Below, piece by piece: positions 9,391 through 62,793 of a stretch of 64,000 nucleotides of DNA. A program made the translations under genes and the position numbers. The notes beneath the pieces were generated by a model. That model was not told the origin of the DNA. It was given only the letters and a program-made list of their open reading frames with translations, and did no database searches. The DNA lies in IMG/VR virus record IMGVR_UViG_3300050821_002136, positions 44,278 through 108,277 of that record; one strand, 5' to 3'. How positions within the stretch are numbered: position 1 is the stretch's first letter; each line of letters opens with the position of its first letter. Origin of the DNA: a virus.

Positions 9391-10508
9391 AAAAGGCCAA
9401 TCACCAAGCAAACGTTGTAAGGATTGCGGAAGTATTACCACACTCTAATGCCGACAGCTTGGAAATCATACACATCGGCGCATTCCAAGTAGTGACCAAG
9501 AAGGGCAACTTCAAAACTGGGGATCTCGGTGTCTACATTCAGCCTGACAGCGTCGTACCTCAGACTGAGCCCTTCAAGTTCATTTGGGAAACCTATGTAG
9601 GCTTGGATGGTACTGTGCCTGAGAAACGCAGGCGCATCACCGTAAAGCGTTTGCGAAAGGAGTGGAGCGAAGGATTGCTCATGCCTCTCTCTGACTTCCC
9701 TGAGCTTTCTGTGTTCAATCTACCTGAAGGCGCAGATGTCTCAGAACTCCTGGGCATCACTCACTATGACCCAGACAAAGGCAAGGAACCTGCTGCGGAC
9801 AACGAGACCTTCAAGAAGAAGCGTAGCAAGTACCCAAGGAGTCTCAAGGGATGGTGGTATCTCATCCTGCACAAGCTGGGCATTTACACCAGCGGTGGGC
9901 AGAACCATGGGTTCGACAATGAGGAGGGAACAGACATGCCCGTGTTCGACGTAGATGCGTTCAAGCACTACAAGAACGCATTCGAACGTGAGGAGCTGGT
10001 AGAGGTAACTGAGAAGATCCATGGGAGCAATGCACGCTTCGTGTTCCGAGAGGGACACATGTACGCAGGGTCACGAACTCAGTGGAAAGCTGAGAACGCC
10101 AATTGTATCTGGCGCAATGTGCTCAGGGCTCAGCCATGGATTGAAGCATGGTGCCGTACGCATGAGGGCTATGGGCTCTACGGTGAGGTCACTCCCACCC
10201 AGGGTGAGAATTTTCAATATGGAAGCGCTGAACCTCAGTTCTTCCCATTTGACATTAGGACCCCTGAGGGAACTTGGCTGGAAGAAATAGAAACCGGACC
10301 AGCACAATGGGTACCCGTGCTATACCAAGGTCCGTTCTACTGGGAAGAAATCAGTAAGTTGGTTGACGGACAGACCGCTGTGCCAAATGCTAAGGGCATC
10401 CGAGAAGGCATAGTGATTCGTCCAGTGAAAGAACGGCATGTACGCGGCCTCGGCCGATTAATTCTCAAATGTGTCTCAAATTCGTACCTCGAAAAGGATG
10501 GAAAATAA
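9387..10508 (+). CDS. RNA ligase, DRB0094 (Rnl5) type
   Basis: This encodes 373 aa from ATG 9387 (ATGA overlap). It should join or repair nicked RNA through a covalent enzyme-AMP intermediate. The N-terminal ~140 residues form the OB-like domain typical of DRB0094-type ligases (VVRIAEVLPHSNADSLEI). The nucleotidyltransferase domain follows with motif I KIHGSN (nucleophile Lys210), motif III-like YGLYGEV, motif IV EGIVIRP and a motif V-like lysine in RLILKCVS. No polynucleotide kinase or tRNA gene is visible nearby, so its substrate is unknown; repair of host-cleaved tRNA is the usual hypothesis. Confidence 0.88.
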   Translation: MKKANHQANVVRIAEVLPHSNADSLEIIHIGAFQVVTKKGNFKTGDLGVYIQPDSVVPQTEPFKFIWETYVGLDGTVPEKRRRITVKRLRKEWSEGLLMPLSDFPELSVFNLPEGADVSELLGITHYDPDKGKEPAADNETFKKKRSKYPRSLKGWWYLILHKLGIYTSGGQNHGFDNEEGTDMPVFDVDAFKHYKNAFEREELVEVTEKIHGSNARFVFREGHMYAGSRTQWKAENANCIWRNVLRAQPWIEAWCRTHEGYGLYGEVTPTQGENFQYGSAEPQFFPFDIRTPEGTWLEEIETGPAQWVPVLYQGPFYWEEISKLVDGQTAVPNAKGIREGIVIRPVKERHVRGLGRLILKCVSNSYLEKDGK

Positions 10509-10510
10509 CC

Positions 10511-10813
10511 ATGGCAACAAATACCATACAAACACAGCAGTTGAACCGAGTAGCAGCTACGACATCTGAGGCCATCTTGGAATTCATTCGGCAACGCTTG
10601 GCTGACACAGAAACCAAGGGAGCCTTCACAGCTGACCAGCTCCGCTTCTACGTTACCAACCATGTGAGCGGAGGAGTTTCACCATCCTCGGCTGACCGTG
10701 TACTGCGTATGCTGCGTCAAAAGGGCGCGTTGGATTACGTCGTGCTCAACCGTGGGAAGAGCCTGTACCGTGCTATGCCCATCACTGAAGTCAGGGCCAC
10801 TGTGGTTTCCTAG
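10511..10813 (+). CDS. Winged-helix-like hypothetical protein
   Basis: This encodes 100 aa from ATG 10511, two bases after the ligase stop. Helices ATTSEAILEFIRQRLADTE and TADQLRFYVTNHV and the recognition-like helix SSADRVLRMLRQKGALDYVV followed by a short wing look like a winged helix-turn-helix. It could be a DNA-binding regulator of the early block. No specific family is recognised. Confidence 0.6.
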   Translation: MATNTIQTQQLNRVAATTSEAILEFIRQRLADTETKGAFTADQLRFYVTNHVSGGVSPSSADRVLRMLRQKGALDYVVLNRGKSLYRAMPITEVRATVVS

Positions 10814-10815
10814 CC

Positions 10816-11445
10816 ATGGGATATAAAGACCCAGAAAAGAGGCTCTCGGACGCCAAACGACGGAGCAAACTTAGGTACAAGGAAAAGAAGGACGAAATCT
10901 TGGCCAAAGCCAAAGAAGACTACGCCTCAAACCCTGAGTTTAAAGAGAAGGCCAAACAAAGAGCAGCTAAGTACTACAAAGAGAATCCAGACAAAGTCAA
11001 AGAATCCGCCATGAAAAGCCATGAAAATAACCGAGAGCAAAAGAAGATTGATGCGAGACGCAATCGTCTTTGGAGATTTTTTAGGCTTACTCCAGAGGAC
11101 TACGAAAGTATAAAAAAGTACCAAGAAGAGCACTTCTTGTTTAGGTGTCTTATAGGTAAAGACAAAAAAAGAAATGCCGTTGAACATCGACACAAAGACG
11201 GATTGGTACGAGGTTTAATGGCAGTAATACTGAACAGGGCTTATGGGATAATAGAAAGGCTGTATCCAAATAACACCTCAGAAGTGCTTAGAGCCCTTGC
11301 TGAATTCCATGACAACCCGCCTGCAACGTCAGCCTTGGGGTCTCCTAGGTACGGTATATTGGGAATATCAAGGTCCAAGAAAAAGATGATTTACGGCTCC
11401 CCAGATGGCCCAATCACAGCTCCGAAGAAAGTGAGAACAAAGTGA
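10816..11445 (+). CDS. Degenerate endonuclease VII-like protein
   Basis: This encodes 209 aa from ATG 10816. A long Lys/Glu-rich helical N-terminus precedes VEHRHKDGLVRGLMAVILNR (residues 122-141). This aligns with the canonical recombination endonuclease VII core DHDH-x-TG-x-VRGLL-C-x2-CN. The zinc-binding CxxC pairs are missing: only Cys111 remains, and the second pair is replaced by A-V-I-L. It either uses another way to hold the fold or is a homing nuclease in decay. An intact member lies at 62084-62674. Confidence 0.65.
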   Translation: MGYKDPEKRLSDAKRRSKLRYKEKKDEILAKAKEDYASNPEFKEKAKQRAAKYYKENPDKVKESAMKSHENNREQKKIDARRNRLWRFFRLTPEDYESIKKYQEEHFLFRCLIGKDKKRNAVEHRHKDGLVRGLMAVILNRAYGIIERLYPNNTSEVLRALAEFHDNPPATSALGSPRYGILGISRSKKKMIYGSPDGPITAPKKVRTK

Positions 11446-43887: not shown

Positions 43888-45864
43888 TTATTTCTCGTAG
43901 CCACCAAAATTAGCGACCCACTGCGTAGACGTAACAGCATCAGGGGTGCATACCACTCTGATTACGGTCCCTGCTGCGATTGGAATAGGCTCGGGGAACG
44001 TGATCGTGTCGTGCTCAACCTGCGGTCCCACGTAGTTCATGGTTATGAGCTTGGTTCCAGCAGGTGACTCAAGGCTTACGAAGCCAATATTTATTGGGTT
44101 AGTTGCAGTGCCTCCTGTTGGTGCGGCCGTCAGCCGAGGCGTGATGTTCAGGTACTCAACGTAAAACGTCTTCGCTGCGGTTACCGTGTAGGTCAATACT
44201 ACCTGATCCGCAGTGACGGCAGTCGAAGTCAGAGTGCTTGTCTTCATGACGTTCGTCTTGCCTGTGGATTGACCCAGGGAGACTGATCCTATGGTCGAGG
44301 AAGACGCTGCGGCTGCTGGGTCATTGATTACGTGCCCGATGACGTTGGTACCTGCAGGCAGAGCATTTGTGATTGCTGTGACCGCAGTTAATGTTCCGCT
44401 GTCCACTACTGTGTGGAGATTCGTGCCTGTTGGTTGTACGACTGTGACGTTGCCTGTGATCGTCGTTGAAGCAAGCGACACAACCCATGGTGACGTTCCT
44501 TGATTGACAGTGCCTATAACCTTCGTAGTCTCAGCTGACAATGTAGCATTAGTGACTGAGGTAGCATCGGTGATGACATGGCCAATGACTGCGGCCGAGG
44601 CGTCGTTTATGACATGTTGAGGAGCAGTGAAGCTGATTGCTCCGCTAATGGGCTGGGTAACTCCTGATCCGTCCACTCTCAATGCACCCGCGAGGGTAAG
44701 TGAAAAAGGAGAAGTCTGAGCAGTCGTGTATGCAGGAGCGGCCGTAGTGACCGCACCCATTACCAGCCCTCCCTTTTCACCAGACGTGGTAGAACCTTGT
44801 GCAACCTGTAACGAGGATACAGTGGCATCCAAAGCTAGGCCGTTTGTGGTTCCTATGTTCGCTGTGACTGTGCCTGAGACAACCCAAGGTGAAGTGGACT
44901 GAGTGACAGCCACTGTTCCCGTAATGGTCGTTGAAGACAATGAAACAACCCAAGGGGAAGTTCCCTGATTAGCAGTGACAGTGCCACTGACAGGCTGAAC
45001 GGCCTGGAAAAAAGTACCAGTGACAGCTACCGAACCAGTGACAACAGTTGTTGAGCCGGAATCGGTTATAACATGTCCAATTACGTTGCTTCCTGCGTTA
45101 AGGCCGACGTTCCATGTGCCACTCTGGGCTGCGGAGACTGCTCCTACTATGACCCAAGGAGAAGTTGATTGGGTGACTGCCACAGTGCCTGTGATAGTTG
45201 TAGATGCTAGCGTGACAGGTACAGTATTGGTTATGAATGCGTTGACACCGATGACTGTAACTGCACCTGGGGAAGTTCCGTAATTCGACGGAGACCCGAG
45301 GGTCACCCCAGCCCATTCCGTGATGTCATTAGACGCAACTACCGATCCCACATTGACACGCAATGCGCCTGTCAAGTCTGTAGACAGGAAAACCTGATTA
45401 CCTTCGATGAGAGTTGGGGCTACTGCTGATGCGACAGCAGGAAGCACACCTATGTTGTTTCCAAGCGGTGCTGCACTGTTTGTGAACAGACTTCCCGTAA
45501 CAGGAACGGTTCCGCTAGCTTCAGGGAATACGATACGAACAGGTTGCGCTAATTGCAGAGGAGAAGTAGAGACCGCATCTCCGCTGTCATATACCAAGAC
45601 TAGGTCAAACCTCTGTGGTATTCCTGGTTCTGGTGGGTTGTCAAATGTTATGGTGACATTTCCATTAGCATCAACTGTTGCCGTAATGATAGCACCTAGG
45701 GTGTTAGCTATAAAAGCCGACGAAGGAATGACGCCTAGAGGCAAAAATGGAATAGAACCGCTGTCTCCTATTTGGTACACGCTGGAAAGGGAAAGAACAA
45801 AGACGGTAGAAGATCCATCACCCTGCAAGTTGATAACAATAGGAACTAATTGTTGTAGAGCCAT
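43888..45864 (-). CDS. Repeat-rich tail fibre-like protein
   Basis: This encodes 658 aa. ATG 45864 follows GGAGGTCAGATAA, one base after the previous stop, and is preferred to an upstream in-frame ATG. The N-terminus (LQQLVPIVINLQGDG) is a short attachment domain. The body has recurrent modules TITGTVAVTQSTSPWVV (three or more), TVTANQGTSPWVV and NVIGHVITDSG/AVIGHVITDAT/NVIGHVINDPA, forming a beta-helix or triple-stranded fibre. A C-terminal domain (KTFYVEYLNITPRLTAAPTG to WVANFGGYEK) is globular. Probable side fibre; target unknown. Confidence 0.7.
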   Translation of the reverse strand: MALQQLVPIVINLQGDGSSTVFVLSLSSVYQIGDSGSIPFLPLGVIPSSAFIANTLGAIITATVDANGNVTITFDNPPEPGIPQRFDLVLVYDSGDAVSTSPLQLAQPVRIVFPEASGTVPVTGSLFTNSAAPLGNNIGVLPAVASAVAPTLIEGNQVFLSTDLTGALRVNVGSVVASNDITEWAGVTLGSPSNYGTSPGAVTVIGVNAFITNTVPVTLASTTITGTVAVTQSTSPWVIVGAVSAAQSGTWNVGLNAGSNVIGHVITDSGSTTVVTGSVAVTGTFFQAVQPVSGTVTANQGTSPWVVSLSSTTITGTVAVTQSTSPWVVSGTVTANIGTTNGLALDATVSSLQVAQGSTTSGEKGGLVMGAVTTAAPAYTTAQTSPFSLTLAGALRVDGSGVTQPISGAISFTAPQHVINDASAAVIGHVITDATSVTNATLSAETTKVIGTVNQGTSPWVVSLASTTITGNVTVVQPTGTNLHTVVDSGTLTAVTAITNALPAGTNVIGHVINDPAAAASSSTIGSVSLGQSTGKTNVMKTSTLTSTAVTADQVVLTYTVTAAKTFYVEYLNITPRLTAAPTGGTATNPINIGFVSLESPAGTKLITMNYVGPQVEHDTITFPEPIPIAAGTVIRVVCTPDAVTSTQWVANFGGYEK

Positions 45865-45865
45865 T

Positions 45866-48106
45866 TTATCTGACCTCCGACCAAGAGAGAACACCGAGAG
45901 ATGGGGCCGTACCACCTACACCAGTGACACACAAAGTCCACGTATCTTCGGCCGCGTTACCAGCAAAGTTCAATGTGAACGCTTTTTCCGGTGCAATATT
46001 AATACCTCCTGTACCAGATTTAGAGGAACCTGCCCCGCCGCCAGCGTATCCCGAGGCTATGACTATGCCTCCTGTGCACCCCGTAGCTGCTATATCAAAG
46101 TTTACTCCAGAGTTGGCATCCACTGAATTGAACGAGGGTGATCCTGTAAGGGTGCCGTTATAAACAAGCTCCCAATACACAGGATTAGCCCCTGTGACGA
46201 AAACTTCTGTGGTCTCCAACTGGATAAAGGTGCGATTAGTGATGGAATTGAAAGTGACCTTAGGTTGAAGAGAAACCAGAGGCGTGCGCGTCCCCGAAGC
46301 AGCCGTTATAGAAGTACCCTTGTTTCCTGTAGTAAATTTGTACGGAAAGGGAAATTCCACGCTACCTTCTGACATGATAGACATGCAGATTTGCTTCATT
46401 GTTGTAGTGGTAGCAGCGATGCCTGTGTTGGTAATTTCCGCACGACATGGTAGATTGGCAGTGTTCGTGTAGGGAGAAGTAGAATTGTTGGAGTTCACTA
46501 TTTCGTGCACAACAACAAGAGAGTCATCCACGAACAGAGACCAACGTACTCTTCCTACTCCGAGCCACTGCATATCCATGGCGAAAATCTGGGTCTTTGA
46601 CCAGTCGATGGTGATGCCGGAAGGACCCGTGCCATTCATGGGGTCTTTATTCCAGTTTGCTTGCAATATGGAAGTTGTGACGGGACTGCCAGAGGCTGAA
46701 GAGCGTTGATTTACGCTCACCCCAAGCGTACCATCCATCTCGAAGTAGACACCATCGTTAGCATCAAAGTAGCCAATACGACTGCGGACATTCGTCTTCT
46801 GCGCTCCCAAAAACCCTGTCATGATGATGAGTGCCGATTTGCCAGGACAATATCTGAAGTAGGACTTTGTCTGGTTGATTGCCGACGCACCAGAGGCTGT
46901 TCCTCCCGTAGAAAGAGTAATCGAGGATTCATTAGCCGTTTTAGTGACAGTACCAGTACCAACTAAAGACGTATTGAACAGCAACGGTTGGGTGTCGTAT
47001 TGAAACTGAGCTGCAAATGCCGTGAACGGTTGAGAGGTACGGGCGCGATTAAATGCATCGCTCGCTTCTCCACCGAAACCTACCTGCAGATTTCCAAATG
47101 CATCGGTTGCTATGTCCGTATAGAGGGACGGATTGATGAAACTCTTTCCCGTAAGCACAGCTCGGGTAATGCCAGCGGCATCCGTAGTTGCAACCACGGT
47201 GTCCAAAGACTTCGTTGTCTGAACAGCGGGGAGAGAAGACAGGAGCGTCTGCAAACGGAAAATCCCTTGGTTCCCGGTTCCGTTCGTGTACACAAGGCGG
47301 AAGAATCGGGCATGGACACCAGCCACGACCACCACGGGCAGGCTGGCTAGAAGAATAGCCCTGATAACATAGTCCCAACTTGTGCCGTCAGTGCTGAACT
47401 GAAGTTGCAATCCGTTAGGAGCGCTGCCCTGATCAGAGAATGCCTCAACCGAAATCTTAGTAACGGCAGTGGCAGTCAGGTCTACAGCTGTTCCCGTAAA
47501 AACTGCGTTTGCAGACAAAAGGGATGTCGTAGAATTTGCACTATTAACCACGTCAGCTTGTCCTATGACTGTGGTAGTTCCTCCGACAAGTAGATGGCCA
47601 GTGTTATCTACCGCGATATCATACTGATTGCCGTCCAGACCTTTACCAGATACGAGTACAGGATTAAGACCAGTTGCAGTGTGCCCCTCAGGAAACAGTC
47701 CTTGTACCAAGGGGTCCCCAGGGACATATTCGTTCAACACGGAGTCGTAAATAAGCAGTTCCCCGTTGTGGCCGGGAGGTGCAGCTGCAACAGGTATGCC
47801 TTGTATAGACGTGGCGTTAGAAGACCCACCAGCTGCCACAGTAATATCTACAATTCCTCCAGGCTCAGCAGTTATGGCTATGGAACCGTCGGTAGATACG
47901 AGGCCTGTGTTTGGAGAAAAACTTTGACCGCTTGCTGAGGATGGTATAGGATCAAAGGGCCTACGAAGAGGTTCCTCTTGTTGGTTATTAAGAAACCAGT
48001 AGACATCAGAATACGACAGGCCCAAACGGTTAGCTATATCAATTGGTCCAGAGCCTACCTTGAATGCTGCAAGGATTTCGGCTTGTTGCGTTGGAGTTAA
48101 GGCCAT
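45866..48106 (-). CDS. HTH-containing tail protein
   Basis: This encodes 746 aa from ATG 48106. Residues 1-45 form a helix-turn-helix (AEILAAFKVGSGPIDIANRL followed by GLSYSDVYWFLNNQ), unexpected in a virion protein. Then comes a low-complexity linker, Thr/Gly/Ser-rich beta modules (TGTAVDLTATAVTKISVEAF), and a domain of about 150 residues (MTGFLGAQKTNVRSRIGYFD to EFPFPYKFTTGNKG) of a kind found in other tail-protein C-termini. It ends with an aromatic-rich fold. The HTH could bind phage DNA or be a fold re-used for attachment. The stop precedes the next ATG by one base. Confidence 0.7.
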   Translation of the reverse strand: MALTPTQQAEILAAFKVGSGPIDIANRLGLSYSDVYWFLNNQQEEPLRRPFDPIPSSASGQSFSPNTGLVSTDGSIAITAEPGGIVDITVAAGGSSNATSIQGIPVAAAPPGHNGELLIYDSVLNEYVPGDPLVQGLFPEGHTATGLNPVLVSGKGLDGNQYDIAVDNTGHLLVGGTTTVIGQADVVNSANSTTSLLSANAVFTGTAVDLTATAVTKISVEAFSDQGSAPNGLQLQFSTDGTSWDYVIRAILLASLPVVVVAGVHARFFRLVYTNGTGNQGIFRLQTLLSSLPAVQTTKSLDTVVATTDAAGITRAVLTGKSFINPSLYTDIATDAFGNLQVGFGGEASDAFNRARTSQPFTAFAAQFQYDTQPLLFNTSLVGTGTVTKTANESSITLSTGGTASGASAINQTKSYFRYCPGKSALIIMTGFLGAQKTNVRSRIGYFDANDGVYFEMDGTLGVSVNQRSSASGSPVTTSILQANWNKDPMNGTGPSGITIDWSKTQIFAMDMQWLGVGRVRWSLFVDDSLVVVHEIVNSNNSTSPYTNTANLPCRAEITNTGIAATTTTMKQICMSIMSEGSVEFPFPYKFTTGNKGTSITAASGTRTPLVSLQPKVTFNSITNRTFIQLETTEVFVTGANPVYWELVYNGTLTGSPSFNSVDANSGVNFDIAATGCTGGIVIASGYAGGGAGSSKSGTGGINIAPEKAFTLNFAGNAAEDTWTLCVTGVGGTAPSLGVLSWSEVR

Positions 48107-48449: not shown

Positions 48450-49499
48450 TTAGCCTAGCACAGTCGTTCTATTCCAAGTTGCCTCGAACAGCACAAGGTC
48501 AGAAAGTACCTGTACAGGCATGATCTGACTAGCTGTCAGCTCCACTCCTGCTGGAGTGAAGATCTGCAGCGCGTCATTAACTGGACTATAGTGGTACTGG
48601 TACCCACCGACAAGTAGAGGAACAACAACGTCTTCTCCGAAGACCTCACAACGCAAGAAGCCGTTGAAATCTACCGTACGCTGGTCTGCAAACAACATCA
48701 GTCCCATAGGAATACCTCCTACAGTGTAACCACCGGGGGAGAAGGTAACGATTCCCCAAGCTTTGATAGTTTTCCCCGTGATATCCGGGAAACACAATTC
48801 AGACAGGGTAATCGTAGAGGCTGTCGAGGATGTTGTGGCAGCTGCTGCGGGTGAAGTGGCAGTGTTGCCAGTTGTTCCCGAGAAAGTGACCGCTCCATTC
48901 AAAGCGAGCAAGCGTCCTGTAACGTTCGCATTGTCATTTACCGTGATAGAGGTATTAGCGATAGTGTCGCCCTTCACTACAGCAGTGGTACCATACGTAG
49001 ACGAAGAGCCAACCAGCCAAATGACGTTTCTCGCCAGTGCTCCACCTGTAAGAAGAACAGTAGATCCGTTGTTAAGGGTCAATGTGCTTCCAATTTGGAA
49101 GATAAACTGAGCATTAGGATTGCCCTGAGCGTTCAAGGTTACCGTTCCTCCCACTGACAAGTCCAAAGAAGTAGCAGCTTTGTAAACTCCGGGAGTAAAT
49201 GTCTGTCCAGCAAGGTTTCCTACGATGGGAACACCACCGGGGAGAGCTTGGTAGAAGTTATAAGCAGCAGTGGCGTCAGTCTGTGCTTGCTGTGATGCAC
49301 TGTCAGGTCCGTGGATTGTAAACGGCGCTGCCACTGTGGATGGCGGAAAGTTGGTAACAGCGGACACGGCTGTTGGGTAAATACCAACGTTTCCACCGAC
49401 AACTGATGTTCCAGTTCCGGCTTGTCCTGTTACTGCGGTTGCGGCTAAGACTTCAAAATTTGCCGCTGTTGCTAGTTCTTGATCAATGGGTATTGCCAT
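48450..49499 (-). CDS. Virion-cluster protein with ice-binding-like (DUF3494) domain
   Basis: This encodes 349 aa from ATG 49499. Residues ~14-210 match the DUF3494/ice-binding-protein beta-helix: FEVLAATAVT (15-24), GGNVGIYP (35-42), AAYNFYQALPGG, AGQTFTPGVY (97-106), FIFQIGSTLTLNNGS (132-146), ALARNVIWLVGSSSTYGTTA (154-173) and ANVTGRLLALNGAVT (191-205). In bacteria this domain binds ice or acts as an adhesin scaffold. A C-terminal domain of ~110 residues (CFPDITGKTIKAWGIV to VLFEATWNRT) looks like a phage structural module. There is no signal peptide, which fits a virion component, not a secreted protein. Its position in the tail cluster suggests a tail or side-fibre protein. Ice binding is not proven. 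Confidence 0.8.
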   Translation of the reverse strand: MAIPIDQELATAANFEVLAATAVTGQAGTGTSVVGGNVGIYPTAVSAVTNFPPSTVAAPFTIHGPDSASQQAQTDATAAYNFYQALPGGVPIVGNLAGQTFTPGVYKAATSLDLSVGGTVTLNAQGNPNAQFIFQIGSTLTLNNGSTVLLTGGALARNVIWLVGSSSTYGTTAVVKGDTIANTSITVNDNANVTGRLLALNGAVTFSGTTGNTATSPAAAATTSSTASTITLSELCFPDITGKTIKAWGIVTFSPGGYTVGGIPMGLMLFADQRTVDFNGFLRCEVFGEDVVVPLLVGGYQYHYSPVNDALQIFTPAGVELTASQIMPVQVLSDLVLFEATWNRTTVLG

Positions 49500-49543: not shown

Positions 49544-49831
49544 CTACAATGCCGACACTAAGGTGCCGTCAAACTTTTTAAACTTCCTACGAGTGTTCGC
49601 CTTAAAGCCCATGCTGAGCCTTTCTCGTTCGGCAGCAGTCGTTACTCGTATCTGCCCTGCTTGTCCAACTCTGCGTTTCTTGAACTCTGCTGCATTTATA
49701 TTGCTCAGAGTTTCTCGGTATATGTTGCGAAATGACAACACCTGATAATTGCTTCGCAAGTAGTGCCATTGAGCAAACACAAGTTTTTGTTGGCGTTTGT
49801 TTAGTAGTTTTTTCTCCTCTTCCTGAGTCAT
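49544..49831 (-). CDS. Small basic hypothetical protein
   Basis: This encodes 95 aa from ATG 49831 (its A is shared with the upstream TAA; a longer in-frame form is a shadow of the glycosyltransferase gene). It is Lys/Arg/Gln-rich and helical (KLLNKRQQKLVFAQWHYLRS) with a basic C-terminus (KANTRRKFKKFDGTL). It resembles nucleic-acid-binding tails. No family is recognised. Confidence 0.6.
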   Translation of the reverse strand: MTQEEEKKLLNKRQQKLVFAQWHYLRSNYQVLSFRNIYRETLSNINAAEFKKRRVGQAGQIRVTTAAERERLSMGFKANTRRKFKKFDGTLVSAL

Positions 49832-50553
49832 TACAAACCTTCCTTGAATACTTTGTGAAATTCTCTCAGAATCACGTCTGTACCCGTGGCGTGGAAGCCT
49901 GACCAATTAAGATAGATGCACGCTGCAAAGTAGTTTTCTACAGGTCTCCTTACGGGTGGTGAGGGCCTGATCGGTGCCCTTAAGGGACGCCTTGGAGGAG
50001 GTGGTTTTTCTCCCAGATGCAGAAAGTACCTAGGATCACTAGTCAAAAATATGTTTTGATAGTGAAGCACACTAGATACCCATGCCTCATCGTTACCGTG
50101 CTCATGACTGTGCAGGGCTCCTGCTCGTCCTGGTAAAGGCGCGTTTATGATCAACTCCATAGCACGCCTGCTGAGTACGTAAAAGAATCCCCAAGGTGTT
50201 TTTATTTCGCCAACTTTACAGCCGGGGTCTTGCCAGCCCGAAAAGTCTGCTCGATGGAATCCTGCGTACCACTGACTGGGCTTGCAAATGACATCGTCGT
50301 CTACTTTTGCGGCATAGTCATAGCCGTTTTCATACGCCCACCTCATTACTGCTTGAACCTTCTCGGGCAACTCTAGATAAGCGTCTCCGCAATCCAAGAA
50401 CACTTCATCTGGTAAGGGGTCACGGGTGGCACCTCTTCCTCGGAAGAACCTTAAGTCTACCTCAGCAGGAACCAAAGGTGCCCATGTGCTACGTATGGCG
50501 TCTGAAAACTCTTCCCGGCTGTGGCAATTGATAACTGCTAATAGCACTTTCAC
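49831..50553 (-). CDS. GT31-like glycosyltransferase, copy 1
   Basis: This encodes 240 aa from ATG 50553. The opening MKVLLAVINCHSREEF, the RSTW (21-24) and the metal/nucleotide-sugar motif DDD (85-87 in AAKVDDDVICKPSQWY) fit GT-A-fold beta-1,3-galactosyl/N-acetylglucosaminyltransferases (GT31-like). A distal HEHGNDEAWV supplies the acidic catalytic region. A Pro/Arg-rich insertion (GEKPPPPRRPLRAPIRPSPP) at ~185-205 is unusual. It is paralogous to the gene at 52475-53149. It belongs to a four-gene glycosylation island in the tail cluster. Acceptor and donor cannot be read from sequence. Confidence 0.75.
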   Translation of the reverse strand: MKVLLAVINCHSREEFSDAIRSTWAPLVPAEVDLRFFRGRGATRDPLPDEVFLDCGDAYLELPEKVQAVMRWAYENGYDYAAKVDDDVICKPSQWYAGFHRADFSGWQDPGCKVGEIKTPWGFFYVLSRRAMELIINAPLPGRAGALHSHEHGNDEAWVSSVLHYQNIFLTSDPRYFLHLGEKPPPPRRPLRAPIRPSPPVRRPVENYFAACIYLNWSGFHATGTDVILREFHKVFKEGL

Positions 50554-51613
50554 GTCCTGGTCTCCTGAGGGCTCTGCGTTCTACGGGTAGATTCTTGGCC
50601 ATTTCCTCGTTGTATTTTTTGTACTCCTCCAAGAGGTTTGCATCCTCCTTTAAGATTGTACGGTATTTAAATTCAAACAAAGACTTAATGTCCCAATCAC
50701 GATCATATCCATGCACGATTGAGAACACTTTGCCCTTAGGTTTGTCTACACACTCTATTCCTTGTAGAGGGTGGGATAGAGACTCTATCCTTAGACGACG
50801 GTTCTTCCCCCAAATAGGGTTGAACACAATCATGGAGTTGGTTATCTCTGGCACAGTACCTGCATGCAGTGTGCATGTGTTTATGTCCAACACAGGATGA
50901 GTGTCTCTCATGTAAGGCCAACACGGTACACGCCAGGGGCTCCAACAAGGGTGCAAACAAGCTGCAAAGCCTTCAGACCACCTAGGAATGCGCAATACAT
51001 CTTTTAGCATACTGTGCATCACATAGTTAATCCAAATTTGACAGGGAGGGTGTCCCCCTGTGTACGTTTTACAACCGAGGTGGACTTGGTGAAAAACCTC
51101 AGTCATAGACTCTGCTTCTCCTGCCCAGGTACCTCCATTGATTACTTCACAGTCCTTTATTTCTTGATACTTCTTTGCTCCCAAAATGCTAATAGCCCAC
51201 AATTGGTTAGTTTCTTCTTGCTCTATGGTAACGCACTCGGTTGATCCTATGAGCTTAGCATTACCTATACTATTCTCCATCCAATCGCTGGGGTTACTTT
51301 GTAGAATCAAGTCCTTAACGTCAAGCCAAAATATGTACCTGAATTCTTTGTAGTGATCCCTTAGGTATTCCCAACACACCCTCATGCGAGCGTGAAAAAA
51401 AGGCTCTTTAGGAGTAGGCAAATCTATTAGTTCAAAACCGTGTAAAAGAAGTGCAGACCTAGTTGTTGGATGAATACCCCACACTAGCATAACTTTCCTG
51501 CCGGTAAATCCAGCACGCTTTATGCTCTCTAGGTAAGATTCTACGCCTCCCGGTCGGCTGCGTTCCCACTGACTTCCTAAAACACCTAAAACCAAATCAT
51601 GCGTCTTGTCCAC
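50489..51613 (-). CDS. Putative glycosyltransferase, GT-A-like
   Basis: This encodes 374 aa if started at GTG 51613 (AAGAAGACTCA upstream); an ATG ten codons earlier is possible. The core has VMLVWGIHPTTRSALLLHGF, then a DxxD-type motif in YIFWLDVKDLILQSNP (Asp98, Asp101) and CEVINGGTWAGEAESM, a layout of nucleotide-sugar-dependent transferases. The C-terminal ~80 residues are helical and charged. Its 3' end overlaps the start of the GT31-like gene by 65 bases. Donor and acceptor are unknown. It lies between the epimerase and the first GT31-like gene. Confidence 0.65.
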   Translation of the reverse strand: MDKTHDLVLGVLGSQWERSRPGGVESYLESIKRAGFTGRKVMLVWGIHPTTRSALLLHGFELIDLPTPKEPFFHARMRVCWEYLRDHYKEFRYIFWLDVKDLILQSNPSDWMENSIGNAKLIGSTECVTIEQEETNQLWAISILGAKKYQEIKDCEVINGGTWAGEAESMTEVFHQVHLGCKTYTGGHPPCQIWINYVMHSMLKDVLRIPRWSEGFAACLHPCWSPWRVPCWPYMRDTHPVLDINTCTLHAGTVPEITNSMIVFNPIWGKNRRLRIESLSHPLQGIECVDKPKGKVFSIVHGYDRDWDIKSLFEFKYRTILKEDANLLEEYKKYNEEMAKNLPVERRALRRPGRESAISSYQLPQPGRVFRRHT

Positions 51614-52478
51614 TGAGTCTTCTTTCTGGCAATAAAGAGTCATACAGCTTCCAGCCCTCGTACTGCGGTGTAAAGCTCAACTCTTTCAACTTTGTCACAT
51701 CCATGTAAAACGAAGCTACAGGCACCTTTTTCTGAAATTCAGTTGGCTCCTTGTAAGTGATGTTCCCTGAGGAGTTCATACGATATTTGGCATGCTCTAA
51801 AATCTCTTTGTAGTACCAAGTCTTTCCACAACCGATGTTGTAGATCTCATTGACTGCTCCTTTGCACATCACGGTCTCTACGGCTCGCACGCAATCCTCA
51901 ACATGCATGAAATCTCGGTAAAACCGACCGTCTCCGAACAACTCTACGTCTTTGCCCTCGGCCAACAAGTTGATCGAATGCTGTAGGACGTTCTTCTTGG
52001 GAGAAACCTTGGTGTCCCCAGGCCCTACGATGTTAGCAAATCTAAGAACTCTATAGTTAAGCCCGAAGGTCTCACAGTAAGAAATAAGGAGCTGTTCCGC
52101 GCAGCGTTTGGTGATGATGTAGAATCCCTTAGGATCACATGGGGCGTCTTCGGAAACCGGGAGGTCCTTTTGGTTCCCATAAACTGACCACGAACTGATG
52201 AGGTTGAACACGCCCTTCTTCCCAGTTCTTTCTTGATACCTTTTCCAGTTCTCCAAAACTTTTACAAGCAGGCTCAAGTTTGTGTCAATGTCAAGGTGAG
52301 GGTTGTCGAATACGCTGTAGTTGTGAACAGTGCTTATTAAATGAAGCACGTCTGGGCTATAGACTTCGTAGTCCAGGCGCTCGTTGATGCTTGAGATGTT
52401 TCCTATGGCATGATGATAGTACGCAAGCACATACGCGCTGCCCACAAAACCGTGCCCTCCCAAAATAGTTAAGCTCAC
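51597..52478 (-). CDS. NAD-dependent sugar epimerase/dehydratase (extended SDR)
   Basis: This encodes 293 aa from ATG 52478. The Rossmann GGHGFVG (7-13), the active-site Ser95/Ser96 in NLISSWSVYG, and the Tyr120-x3-Lys124 pair (YIITK) identify an extended short-chain dehydrogenase such as UDP-glucose 4-epimerase or dTDP-sugar reductase. RFANIVGPGDTKVSPKKNVL and FYRDFMHVEDCVRAVETVM fit sugar-nucleotide binding. It would make the activated sugar used by the adjacent transferases. Exact substrate unknown. Both stop and start overlap neighbours. Confidence 0.88.
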   Translation of the reverse strand: MSLTILGGHGFVGSAYVLAYYHHAIGNISSINERLDYEVYSPDVLHLISTVHNYSVFDNPHLDIDTNLSLLVKVLENWKRYQERTGKKGVFNLISSWSVYGNQKDLPVSEDAPCDPKGFYIITKRCAEQLLISYCETFGLNYRVLRFANIVGPGDTKVSPKKNVLQHSINLLAEGKDVELFGDGRFYRDFMHVEDCVRAVETVMCKGAVNEIYNIGCGKTWYYKEILEHAKYRMNSSGNITYKEPTEFQKKVPVASFYMDVTKLKELSFTPQYEGWKLYDSLLPERRLSGQDA

Positions 52479-53149
52479 CTGAGTCTCCTAAACGTTCTCT
52501 TCTCTGCAGAGTTTTGGGCCTTGTAGGCTTTGTACTTTCTGTTCTTCTGGTCTGCCCATGTCTCAACCATCATTTCCGGCCGATATCCTTTGAAGTACCA
52601 TGCTCGGACGCTGGACAAATGAAAGGTGATAGTGTGGTCGTCCATCACATCCCCAGGACAGAATTTGAATCTTGGGTCTGCGTGGAGTTCTATGCCCTTC
52701 CCTAGAAGTATACGAGCAATATGTACGTCTTCCTCAAACCCCGGGGCTCCCCCAGCATCTACTACGTACTGCATGGCTTTTCTAGAGAGGATATAGCCAG
52801 CTCCTCCTGAGGCGAAGAAGGAATTGGCTCCTCCGACCCAATCGTAGGCTTCGAAACCACTCGCTAGGAGTAGCCTAGGGCGTACCAGGGTGTCCAGGTC
52901 GCACTTGAAGACGAATTCGTAGCCCTGTTCCAATGCCCATGCGTAGAGGGCAACGGTTTTATTCGTGAGGCTATCAAATCCGTCTTCAACCTTGAGAAAT
53001 ACTTCATCGTGCGCTAAGTTGACCTCAGGGTTACCAAGGAAAAACCTGAGGTCAACCTCAGGGGGAATGTCCTTCCCCCACGTAGACTGGATCACCTCCT
53101 CGTACTGCTTAAGAGAATGGCAACTAGGTACGGCTATTAAGACTTTCAT
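52475..53149 (-). CDS. GT31-like glycosyltransferase, copy 2
   Basis: This encodes 224 aa from ATG 53149. It is a paralogue of 49831-50553 (MKVLIAVPSCHSLKQYEEVI, then STWGKDIPPEVDLRFFLGN). The D-x-D-type motif is DLD (84-86 in FKCDLDTLVRPRLLL), and GGAGYILSRKAMQYVVDAGG with ED in APGFEEDVHIARI fits the GT31 acceptor half. The C-terminus is basic (AEKRTFRRLR). The proline-rich insertion of copy 1 is absent here. With copy 1 and the third transferase it could elongate a glycan on virion or host surface. Confidence 0.75.
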   Translation of the reverse strand: MKVLIAVPSCHSLKQYEEVIQSTWGKDIPPEVDLRFFLGNPEVNLAHDEVFLKVEDGFDSLTNKTVALYAWALEQGYEFVFKCDLDTLVRPRLLLASGFEAYDWVGGANSFFASGGAGYILSRKAMQYVVDAGGAPGFEEDVHIARILLGKGIELHADPRFKFCPGDVMDDHTITFHLSSVRAWYFKGYRPEMMVETWADQKNRKYKAYKAQNSAEKRTFRRLR

Positions 53150-54748: not shown

Positions 54749-55189
54749 TTACCAAGTAGCTATGCCTACGCGCTTCCATGTATTAGGTGCTATGCAGATG
54801 TAGATGAAATTGGAATCCCAAGTCACGGTTCCAGCATCGCCTGTGTCGCTTGAAGTCGATGGGGCATCACTAGGCACGATCAGAGCCTCACCAGTAGCTC
54901 CCATAGGGATTTGGTCTGCATAGAGCTGCTGAAGTTTTCCTTGGTTAACAACTACGATGGTATAGGGAATTCCCGAGGCTGCATAGAAGTCATAGTGCCC
55001 AAAGCCGTCTGTGCTTATAGGTTGTGTTATTGGGAACATTCCTGCTGGATCAGAGAATACCGTAGCTAATGGGATAGGCGGGAGAAAAGTCGCATCGGCA
55101 GGTTGTAGACACACGTAAATCTGAGCCCCAGCTATGGCTTGGCCTAGGACGCTTTTGACCCATCCATCACTTCTAAAAAATGTAGCCAT
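54749..55189 (-). CDS. Short tail protein sharing an N-terminal module
   Basis: This encodes 146 aa from ATG 55189 (GGAGAACG upstream). It is closely related to the first ~110 residues of the 53344 gene (FFRSDGWVKSVLGQAIAGAQ, then STDGFGHYDFYAASG, then LQQLYADQIP). It ends in a different short domain (TVTWDSNFIYICIAPNTWKR) typical of phage tail-fibre tips. A modular duplication has produced two proteins with a common virion-binding start and different ends. Confidence 0.7.
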   Translation of the reverse strand: MATFFRSDGWVKSVLGQAIAGAQIYVCLQPADATFLPPIPLATVFSDPAGMFPITQPISTDGFGHYDFYAASGIPYTIVVVNQGKLQQLYADQIPMGATGEALIVPSDAPSTSSDTGDAGTVTWDSNFIYICIAPNTWKRVGIATW

Positions 55190-59204: not shown

Positions 59205-59500
59205 TATTTTACCCCGTCAGCTTGGGTATCCTGCGCGGCCTTCTCAGCCTCTTCCTTCATCCTGGCACGAGCTTCTTCCAATTGGAGTTTCTTAGCCGCT
59301 ACGTAGATGTCGATCTCTTCTCTGTCTTTGAAGCCAAACTTAACTTCTAAGATGTAGTTGATCAAAAGAGCCGCTGTGTCTGCCATGCCCATAAGCTCTG
59401 AATCGTTGGCCGATAGCTTATTGATCATGCGCTGAGCTTCACGTCGTGTTAAGGGACCATCCCAATACTTAGCGTAGGGCTGATCAACGAGGCTAGACAT
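59204..59500 (-). CDS. Small helical head-cluster protein
   Basis: This encodes 98 aa from ATG 59500, overlapping the upstream gene by 8 bases. Helices GPLTRREAQRMINKLSANDS and a C-terminal coiled coil (AAKKLQLEEARARMKEEAEK) suggest an assembly or scaffold-type role. No family is recognised. Confidence 0.6.
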   Translation of the reverse strand: MSSLVDQPYAKYWDGPLTRREAQRMINKLSANDSELMGMADTAALLINYILEVKFGFKDREEIDIYVAAKKLQLEEARARMKEEAEKAAQDTQADGVK

Positions 59501-60227
59501 TGGTCACCTCTTCCACTCGGCGTTCCACTGTGCGTACATCCTGCACACGAACAATACGTATGCCTTGCTCAGTCTTGTCGTAGTTGATCCCAAGGGATTC
59601 GCAGATTGCCTCGGCCTTCTTGTCAAAGCTGTCAGGCATTTTTTCTGAGCCGTAATCTCCGTAGATGACCTTGTCTCCAGGGTTCACTATTTCTGTCATG
59701 GGGGTTTTCACGCCGCTGACGACGACCCATTGCCCTGCCAGCAATACGATGCCAACATTGGAGTGCTGACGGTACTTGCTCGTGCTGATAAGTCCTGTCT
59801 TGGTGTTCCTAGAAGACCCGTCTTCCATTAGCTCCACATCAGGGTCGTCTGATATGACCATGACTAGTATGCGATCCATAAGAGTCTGCATAGGCATAAA
59901 TTCGGGCTCTGGAAACTTCTTAGGTGCTTCTTTTTTTACTTCTGGAGCTTTGTATTCTCTAGACAGGTAGTTCTTGCGGCTGTCTGTGATTGAAAAGCCC
60001 ACATCCAGGGTTTCCTGAAGTGCTACCGGGGTCAAGTCCGGGAGGTGCTGTCCGTCAACCCTTAGTGCCGCGTACGCGTCGTATTCGTGTTGGGATAGTC
60101 CGTACTTTTCTTCGACTTCCTCTACGGTCATATAGATGAAATCATTTTCAAATTCTGTGATGCTAGTTGCTCCACCGAACTGGGCCGAAGCCGCACCCCT
60201 AGCGAGGACATCTCCCCCGTTGTTCAT
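59493..60227 (-). CDS. GroES-like co-chaperonin with N-terminal extension
   Basis: This encodes 244 aa. ATG 60227 follows a leader with CTCAGGAGACTCAGCA, preferred over a longer frame that overlaps the HNH-like gene. Residues ~112-235 form a Cpn10 fold: LMDRILVMVI, a mobile-loop region (RNTKTGLISTSKYRQHSNVG), and PGDKVIYGDYG, ending in GIRIVRVQDVRTV. GroES has about 97 residues; here the same core carries a ~110-residue N-terminal extension of unknown fold, rich in Ala, Gly and acidic residues. By analogy with T4 gp31 it would work with host GroEL to fold the capsid protein encoded a few genes upstream in the same operon. Assignment is from motif pattern. Confidence 0.75.
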   Translation of the reverse strand: MNNGGDVLARGAASAQFGGATSITEFENDFIYMTVEEVEEKYGLSQHEYDAYAALRVDGQHLPDLTPVALQETLDVGFSITDSRKNYLSREYKAPEVKKEAPKKFPEPEFMPMQTLMDRILVMVISDDPDVELMEDGSSRNTKTGLISTSKYRQHSNVGIVLLAGQWVVVSGVKTPMTEIVNPGDKVIYGDYGSEKMPDSFDKKAEAICESLGINYDKTEQGIRIVRVQDVRTVERRVEEVTNV

Positions 60228-60613
60228 TGCTGAGTCTCCTGAGTAAAGAATCTTCCAGTCTTTGTATTTCTTGACGCCGATGAAGAGGCTGGTCTGGAGT
60301 TCAGTCTCTGCTCCTTCTTGGTGGCCCACCTAACATTGTTTAGCCTGTAATGGTCTGAGTTGTCCATACGGTCTAAAGAATGGTCTTTAGATGGTTTTGT
60401 TCCTATTTTTTCTACTAAAGCTTTGACGCTAGGTATGAGAAACTTTATGCCTCTTCCTCCCCAATCCTCAAATCTGGAATTGTTGGGGTTGTTGCATCTC
60501 TGCTTAGCATTATGAAAAGCTTTGTACTCCGCAGTGTGACGCAAACCATGCCTAAAATTTCCGTTAGTATCGCCAGGGTGAGAAGCATAGCTATTTCCCA
60601 CAACAAATGTCAT
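60224..60613 (-). CDS. YGGRGI-type HNH/homing-nuclease-like protein, copy 2
   Basis: This encodes 129 aa from ATG 60613 (GACTCAGGAGACTCAGCA leader). Motifs are EYKAFHNAKQRCNNP, WGGRGI (a variant of YGGRGI), SLDRMDNSDHY and NVRWATKKEQRLNS, as in the protein at 9025. The C-terminus after NSRP is a Ser/Thr/Gln-rich tail. A 20-bp exact repeat covering leader and ATG lies at both ends of the gene (60225-60244 and 60611-60630), indicating how it became inserted in front of the GroES-like gene. Mobile nuclease role is inferred. Confidence 0.7.
   Translation of the reverse strand: MTFVVGNSYASHPGDTNGNFRHGLRHTAEYKAFHNAKQRCNNPNNSRFEDWGGRGIKFLIPSVKALVEKIGTKPSKDHSLDRMDNSDHYRLNNVRWATKKEQRLNSRPASSSASRNTKTGRFFTQETQQ
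60225..60244 (-). repeat. 20-bp direct repeat, left copy (leader and ATG of GroES-like gene)
   Basis: The sequence on the plus strand is cattgctgagtctcctgagt, identical to 60611-60630. Read on the minus strand it is the ribosome-binding leader and start codon of the GroES-like gene. The two copies begin 386 bases apart and bracket the HNH-like gene. Confidence 0.9.
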
Positions 60614-61810: not shown

Positions 61811-62087
61811 TGGTGCCTTCTACGTTGCGCTTCTCACGGTCCAGCTTGCGCTTTACCAGCCAAAGCAACGCTTCGTCCAGCTTGGTAATGACCATGGCAT
61901 TCTCACGGCAAGGAAATTGCTTGTTGAGTCCTTCGATCTTCTCCTTGGCCCATTCAATGACATCGTCAATCTGCCCACCGTTCACTCCGAATTCTTTAAT
62001 GGGGCCGCTCTGCGTTGTAAAGGTTACTGTGGAGGTCTCTCCGTGTACCTGAGGCCATCCTTCTTCTGCGATGTAAAAGTGATTCAT
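61800..62087 (-). CDS. Tad1-like small protein (candidate cyclic-nucleotide/gcADPR sponge)
   Basis: This encodes 95 aa from ATG 62087 (GACTCAGGAGAACTCAGA leader, ATGA overlap with endonuclease VII). After a beta strand (GETSTVTFTTQSGPIKEFGV) and a helix (QIDDVIEWAKEKIEGLNKQF) comes the block FPCRENAMVITKLDEALLWL followed by VKRKLDREKRNVEGT. This pattern (CREN, ITKL-x-EAL-x-WL, R-x3-R) is that of a widespread small phage family I associate with Tad1/Acb2-type anti-defence proteins that soak up gcADPR or cyclic nucleotides from Thoeris and CBASS. That link is from memory of the motif and is not proven here. It lies two genes behind the capsid gene. Confidence 0.6.
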   Translation of the reverse strand: MNHFYIAEEGWPQVHGETSTVTFTTQSGPIKEFGVNGGQIDDVIEWAKEKIEGLNKQFPCRENAMVITKLDEALLWLVKRKLDREKRNVEGTNAI

Positions 62088-62674
62088 TCTGAGTTCTCCT
62101 GAGTCTTAAGTGTGTACTTCTTTTCGTAACTTTTGAGGTACCTGAGTGCTCTCTTGGTCCAGCTGCCTTCCACCGAGGTGTTCCTTAGGTAGATCTCGGC
62201 ATAGTCGTTAGGGAAGTCCCTAAGGAGGGCTTCGAGAGGGGCTAGCCTACGATTACAAGGACCACACAGTACGCCACGATTGCATTTTCCACAGGTTCTT
62301 GGTTTTCCGTCGCAGCATGCGTGGTCGTGATCTATGTGCATCCTTCGGCCTGCATCTCCGTCTGTGCTTTCACAGATAGCACAATGCCCACCTTGCTCTT
62401 CGAGCTTTGCTGAGTACTGCTCGGGAGTCCAGTGGTACTTTCCAGTGCTAGCTGAGCGTATGACTTTCTCTCTAAACTCTGGATTCTCATCGTACGATTT
62501 CTTGAAGTTCTCTTGTTGCTTAACGGCAATCTTTGGGTTGCTGTGATAAAGCTTCTTTGCCCTGTCAGCGTTGTACTTCTTAAACGCCTCGGGGTTTTCT
62601 TTCTGTTGCTTCTTCCTCCAAGCTTTTGCTCGGATATTGCTTTCTTGCTTTTGCTGTTCTGTTAACGTCCTCAT
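62084..62674 (-). CDS. Recombination endonuclease VII
   Basis: This encodes 196 aa from ATG 62674 (GGAGATAAA upstream; longer in-frame forms lack a signal). A Lys/Asn-rich helical N-terminus precedes the canonical core: CAIC (98-101) for the first zinc pair, catalytic DHDH (115-118 in MHIDHDHACC), and CGPCNRRLAPLEALL for the second CxxC and helix. An insertion with extra cysteines (ACCDGKPRTCGKCNRGVLC) sits between the pairs. T4-type endonuclease VII resolves branched DNA during packaging. A free-standing homing role is also common for this family. The intact zinc pairs contrast with the protein at 10816. Confidence 0.85.
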   Translation of the reverse strand: MRTLTEQQKQESNIRAKAWRKKQQKENPEAFKKYNADRAKKLYHSNPKIAVKQQENFKKSYDENPEFREKVIRSASTGKYHWTPEQYSAKLEEQGGHCAICESTDGDAGRRMHIDHDHACCDGKPRTCGKCNRGVLCGPCNRRLAPLEALLRDFPNDYAEIYLRNTSVEGSWTKRALRYLKSYEKKYTLKTQENSE

Positions 62675-62693
62675 TTTATCTCCTCGAAAGACA

Positions 62694-62726
62694 GAGTAGG
62701 GAAATGTTCGAGGCATTTCCCCACTC
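62694..62726 (-). terminator. Terminator after the capsid gene
   Basis: A 13-bp hairpin with one mismatch, GAGTAGGGAAATG (62694-62706) with CATTTCCCCACTC (62714-62726), closes TTCGAGG. On the minus strand it follows the capsid stop (62794) by 67 bases, and the transcript continues TGTCTTTCG, so it ends or reduces the capsid message before the lower-expressed genes. Confidence 0.75.
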
Positions 62727-62793
62727 CTAAATGTACCACAGCCGTCGCCGTGACACAAGACTTTAAAATACCATCTAAGTGCTTTAGAATCAA

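Follow-up and report, generated by a model that had tools for sequence, protein, structure and literature searches.

We found that the gene at 48450-49499 encodes a 349-aa protein in which an N-terminal DUF3494 (PF11999) domain, of the ice-binding-protein type, is joined to a phage-specific C-terminal domain (CTD), and that the same fusion recurs in other virus contigs. The protein is very probably a virion component. The reading that we favor, with somewhat better than even confidence, is that of a T4 Hoc-like accessory protein on the virion. The window referred to below is the whole 64,000-nucleotide stretch analyzed, and features are numbered within it.

A DUF3494 domain fused to a phage-specific domain

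45866-48106, minus strand: virion structural protein, 746 aa (phrog_1645, E=7e-97), with homologues among structural proteins from cyanophages and Puniceispirillum phage HMO-2011
48174-48440, minus strand: 88-aa ORF directly downstream of the two-domain gene; similar small genes, identified by eye, lie downstream in contigs L004, L006, L007, and L022
48450-49499, minus strand: ORF with an ATG start, the two-domain protein gene (349 aa), conserved in six other virus contigs
48453-48830, minus strand: phage-specific CTD, residues 224-349, the proposed virion anchor
48870-49451, minus strand: DUF3494/PF11999 domain, residues 17-210 (Pfam E=6.1e-46; Foldseek to 6EIO, 1.2 A)
48879-49172, minus strand: span with five predicted B-face strands (residues 110-115, 138-143, 165-170, 183-188, and 202-207), from alignment to AnpIBP and EfcIBP
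49248-49301, minus strand: long helix (residues 67-84) belonging to the DUF3494 fold, from the AlphaFold2 model
49831-53149, minus strand: two PF01762-like galactosyltransferases, a PF01370 epimerase, and another transferase-like gene, upstream of the two-domain gene in the structural region
54749-55189: tail protein (tail protein PHROG)

The sole Pfam match of the 349-aa protein was PF11999 (Ice_binding), at 157.1 bits against a cut-off of 28.7 and covering positions 1-206 of the 208-position profile. When the complete 108,277-bp virus record was searched in all six frames, this gene was the single PF11999 match (E=5.4e-48). There was no PHROG match for the protein. When its sequence was searched against the PDB at E<=1, 25 of the 26 matches were antifreeze, ice-binding, or DUF3494-type chains, and the exception had E=0.09. 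The initial annotation had placed the domain in DUF3494 on the basis of short motifs; each one quoted is present in the ORF, and the full-length profile match above the curated cut-off bears out the assignment.

An AlphaFold2 model, built from 37 aligned rows comprising the window and the fetched loci only, had a mean pLDDT of 89.2, with values of about 95-98 across most of the DUF3494 part. In a Foldseek comparison with the PDB at E<=0.001, all 31 matches were DUF3494 ice-binding proteins, the best being 6EIO (EfcIBP), aligned over 211 columns with 44% identity in the structural alignment. From the profile match and the model, residues 17-210 are a complete DUF3494 domain, predicted to form a discontinuous beta-solenoid against which a long helix packs. 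The earlier expectation of an ice-binding-protein fold is thus supported by a helix packed on the solenoid and by structural matches to DUF3494 alone. A pectate-lyase-type spike was rejected as an alternative, since the significant HMM and Foldseek matches were all to DUF3494.

The CTD had no Pfam or PHROG match. Scans detected it in eight other virus contigs, either fused or by itself, which upholds the earlier view of the C-terminal half as a separate phage-type domain, and it was absent from 80 cellular DUF3494 loci; on this distribution the CTD is a phage-specific domain. A model of the CTD (pLDDT 80.8) matched no PDB or viral structure at E<=0.001. The best viral match was borderline (E=1.4e-3), to an uncharacterized protein (100 aa) from Haloarcula californiae tailed virus 1, and the attempt to assign the CTD to a known fold failed.

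Conservation and genomic neighborhood

Proteins combining DUF3494 and the CTD were also found in virus contigs L003, L004, L005, L006, L007, and L008, with the same architecture at 52-58% identity; L003 and L005 are identical over the two-domain gene, and the L008 copy is cut at the contig end. Because codon positions 1, 2, and 3 are ~60, 70, and 35% identical between the window frame and its relatives, the reading frame is, by this measure, under purifying selection. The N-terminus lacks a hydrophobic signal, as the initial annotation had observed, and the relatives begin at the same place, likewise without a signal peptide. With no N-terminal signal and with a fused domain, the protein does not have the form of a stand-alone, exported protein that a secreted viral auxiliary antifreeze would take.

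Contigs carrying the fused form also have, ahead of the two-domain gene, a stand-alone gene for the CTD (125-140 aa), while the 64-kb window holds the fused form only. In L009 and L022, only the stand-alone form was found, and the 100-kb L022 record, which may be a fragment, had no PF11999 match. Because the CTD occurs alone in these two contigs and the L022 record lacks PF11999, DUF3494 has the look of an optional part added to a phage protein that is older. The simplest history suggested by these sequences is that DUF3494 was joined to a duplicate of that protein. When one fusion was compared with two, a single clade of fused CTDs was not rejected (p-AU 0.44).

Gene order around the two-domain gene is similar in the relatives, so that 48450-49499 combines phage-specific sequence with conserved synteny with structural genes. 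This conservation and synteny in other virus contigs rule out a lone cargo gene. The virion structural protein and the tail protein listed above agree with the structural-gene neighborhood described initially. Galactosyltransferase- and epimerase-like genes also lie upstream in several related contigs, clearly in L003, L009, and L022; those in the window could modify virion or host glycans. In a 675-aa protein at 43888-45915 (minus strand), units like TITGTVAVTQSTSPWVV recur; the protein matched neither Pfam nor PHROGs and looks like a repetitive fiber.

The terminase, at record positions 9717-11384, had matches that were ~25% identical, and by this gene the catalogued genomes include no close relative of the window phage. 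In contrast, the T5 A1-type DNA transfer protein of the same genome (20543-22150, minus strand; phrog_1745, E=2e-172) is matched in 1,125 phage records and is 52% identical to a Rhodobacter phage RcRudolph protein. Homing-type endonucleases are present at 60224-60613 and 62084-62758 (minus strand; HNH and endonuclease VII by PHROG), and L025 carries another at 1211-1741 that appears GIY-YIG-like by eye. The protein at 59493-60329 (minus strand) gave a weak match to a phage GroES co-chaperonin (E=0.004).

DUF3494 domains in other virion-type proteins

The initial annotation named no described phage with this arrangement, but a one-off is not supported: the arrangement recurs in the related phage group, and DUF3494 itself turns up again in many further virion-type proteins. 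A single motif scan of IMG/VR with a DUF3494 alignment, in contigs classed as viral by IMG/VR, gave 75 loci, several of which share contigs or are near-copies. The resulting set comprised 79 distinct viral ORFs, including L002 and the window; 75 were scanned with Pfam and PHROGs, and all 75 matched PF11999. Among these 75 were PHROG matches to tail sheath, tail fiber, minor tail, baseplate wedge, and head families, of which the sheath matches alone were checked as lying mainly outside DUF3494, while the others could involve the DUF3494 part. In L089, L097, and L099 the sheath match is largely C-terminal to the DUF3494 domains; therefore, by sequence, DUF3494 in these contigs either lies within the N-terminal part of a contractile tail sheath or precedes it. 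L097 and L099 also have a second DUF3494 stretch.

Genes adjoining the viral DUF3494 ORFs matched baseplate wedge, head decoration, tail, and major head families, and several contigs each hold 3-5 PF11999 places. L002 (9335-13814; record G008) belongs to a 141.9-kb virus record with five such places, three of them in two adjacent probable tail proteins directly after a gene that looks baseplate-J-like. Secretion-like N-termini were detected in 5 of 79 viral versus 53 of 81 cellular ORFs (Fisher p=6e-16), as counted by a crude hydrophobicity rule on mechanical start sites in ORFs that are not fully independent.

When 67 phage and 74 cellular DUF3494 domains were placed on one tree, the phage label required 7 changes, at least 3 of them forced by starred branches, compared with 47 expected on shuffling. 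The window domain fell within an all-phage clade of 17 rows (SH-aLRT 99), whose domains are carried by proteins that differ in length and in the position of DUF3494. Because of the low number of changes and the all-phage clade, it appears that phages have DUF3494 lineages of their own, which they move from one protein to another. These phages are uncultured and apparently mostly from soil, as judged from the organisms of the cellular relatives and from some IMG/VR dataset numbers that we take to be soil; six of the dataset ids, looked for in papers, turned up in none.

The predicted ice-binding face

In characterized DUF3494 proteins ice is bound by the B-face, which has been published for AnpIBP (PMC7277481). 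The B-face strands of the window protein were mapped by alignment to AnpIBP rather than from coordinates. Seventeen of the 20 predicted outward residues are T, S, A, or G, with one charge, and EfcIBP likewise has 17 of 20. The AnpIBP residues S153 and T156, which have been mutated, align with S165 and T168, both kept in the window protein. Across the phage domains, the T/S/A/G fraction was 0.85 on the B-face versus 0.50 in the rest of the domain. However, phage and cellular B-faces did not differ in this fraction (0.853 versus 0.866, p=0.80), and decoding ice binding from the B-face was rejected as an approach. Ordinary soil Streptomyces and further Actinomycetota are found among the closest cellular relatives, and in soils around the world PF11999 is one of the abundant Pfams (PMC11237643). 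The window sequence, as read from this alignment, permits ice binding and does not demonstrate it.

Proposed role and alternatives

We favor a Hoc-like accessory protein because the same fusion recurs, the CTD occurs alone, and DUF3494 is found repeatedly inside virion-type proteins. The CTD, probably a virion anchor by analogy, would dock on the phage particle, at head or tail, and hold up the N-terminal beta-solenoid as a surface-adhesion module. The repetitive Thr/Ser/Ala/Gly face of the solenoid could then make weak multivalent contacts with an ordered surface, either ice or a polysaccharide/EPS matrix, and such contacts might keep virions near their hosts or intact through freezing. Provided that the protein is a virion component, an adhesive role is likely. 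More broadly, DUF3494 may be a second promiscuous virion display domain comparable to Ig-like domains, acquired several times from bacteria and circulating among unrelated tailed phages, even in contractile sheaths, with affinity for ice or other ordered surfaces; we regard this as an even proposition.

A narrower form of the favored reading is that the displayed domain binds ice and is kept for retention at the ice-water interface or for freeze-thaw survival. The ice-binding nature of the closest solved relative, the EfcIBP-like composition of the B-face, and the two kept residues speak for it; however, the phage face is no more T/S/A/G-rich than that of cellular proteins, and both the ordinary soil relatives and the abundance of the family in soils weigh against it. 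Ice is thus a candidate for the selected ligand, but a doubtful one, and we hold the ice-binding form as a whole to be equally tentative. The solenoid might instead be a passive, stiff block that has no ligand and serves to stabilize or extend the particle surface. The many virion-type contexts of DUF3494, sheath included, are as expected of such a generic module, but the T/S/A/G-rich face is kept relative to the rest of the domain (which fold constraint alone could explain) and the presence of DUF3494 is optional among close relatives; we consider a mere spacer unlikely.

Viral PF11999 genes have also been explained as auxiliary genes whose products shield the infected host from freezing, a proposal made for three Arctic vOTUs (PMC11515562). 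The window protein, with no signal peptide, a fused phage-specific domain, and a position among structural genes, argues against this, as do the 74 of 79 viral relatives without a secretion-like start. The published host-cryoprotective reading does not fit the present viral set, and for this gene we find it improbable. Finally, DUF3494 genes are common in soil bacteria, and a bacterial gene on a mis-assembled or mis-binned contig would be a trivial explanation. It is refuted by the same fused gene in the same order on independent contigs of different datasets, and the absence of the CTD from cellular loci and the purifying selection on the frame also run counter to it, leaving a negligible chance of an artifact.

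If the favored reading is true, a major soil and cryosphere protein family would have a second life as a virion module. Among open-licence papers (preprints not covered), we came across none that describes DUF3494 as part of phage virion proteins, and tblastn with six queries (EfcIBP, four viral domains, and the window protein at full length) did not find DUF3494 in 50,697 catalogued phage genomes; with the same tool, the window domain matched 37 plasmids as a positive control. Viral ice-binding "auxiliary genes" of this type would be particle parts rather than host helpers. A concrete mechanism would be available for phage retention or freeze-thaw survival, and virion ice binding would become testable.

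Comparison with known systems

The closest parallel for the N-terminal part is provided by DUF3494 proteins such as EfcIBP (6EIO), which resemble it in the whole domain, the fold, the long helix, and the B-face composition. In contrast, the characterized members are cellular and often secreted or surface-attached, whereas the phage protein lacks a signal and has a phage-specific domain as its fusion partner. The putative ice-binding-like adhesive domain pAdhesive_15 (PF20597) gave a weak match in 1 of 75 viral DUF3494 ORFs, while the window protein matches PF11999 only. The Arctic vOTU genes (PMC11515562) belong to the same Pfam family and also lie on viral contigs, but they were read as host cryoprotection, whereas the present set is linked to virion-type proteins. 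That study named S-SKS1 as a source of homologues; we obtained no PF11999 match in S-SKS1, in a search in which control genomes gave no match either. In a catalogue of eCIS receptor-binding proteins, ice-binding occurs in a reference only (PMC12923769).

T4 Hoc has a conserved C-terminal anchor and variable displayed domains (PMC10385173; Fraser et al. 2006, cited there). C-terminal homology to Hoc did not emerge from the structure searches of the CTD at E<=0.001, which are not a direct comparison with Hoc, and the resemblance is one of design only, with capsid binding by the CTD putative. Unlike the Ig fold of Hoc, the displayed part of the window protein is a DUF3494 beta-solenoid. The design that the protein is proposed to share with Hoc and phage Ig-like domains is a C-terminal anchor with a variable N-terminal display, patchy in occurrence and spread among virion proteins.
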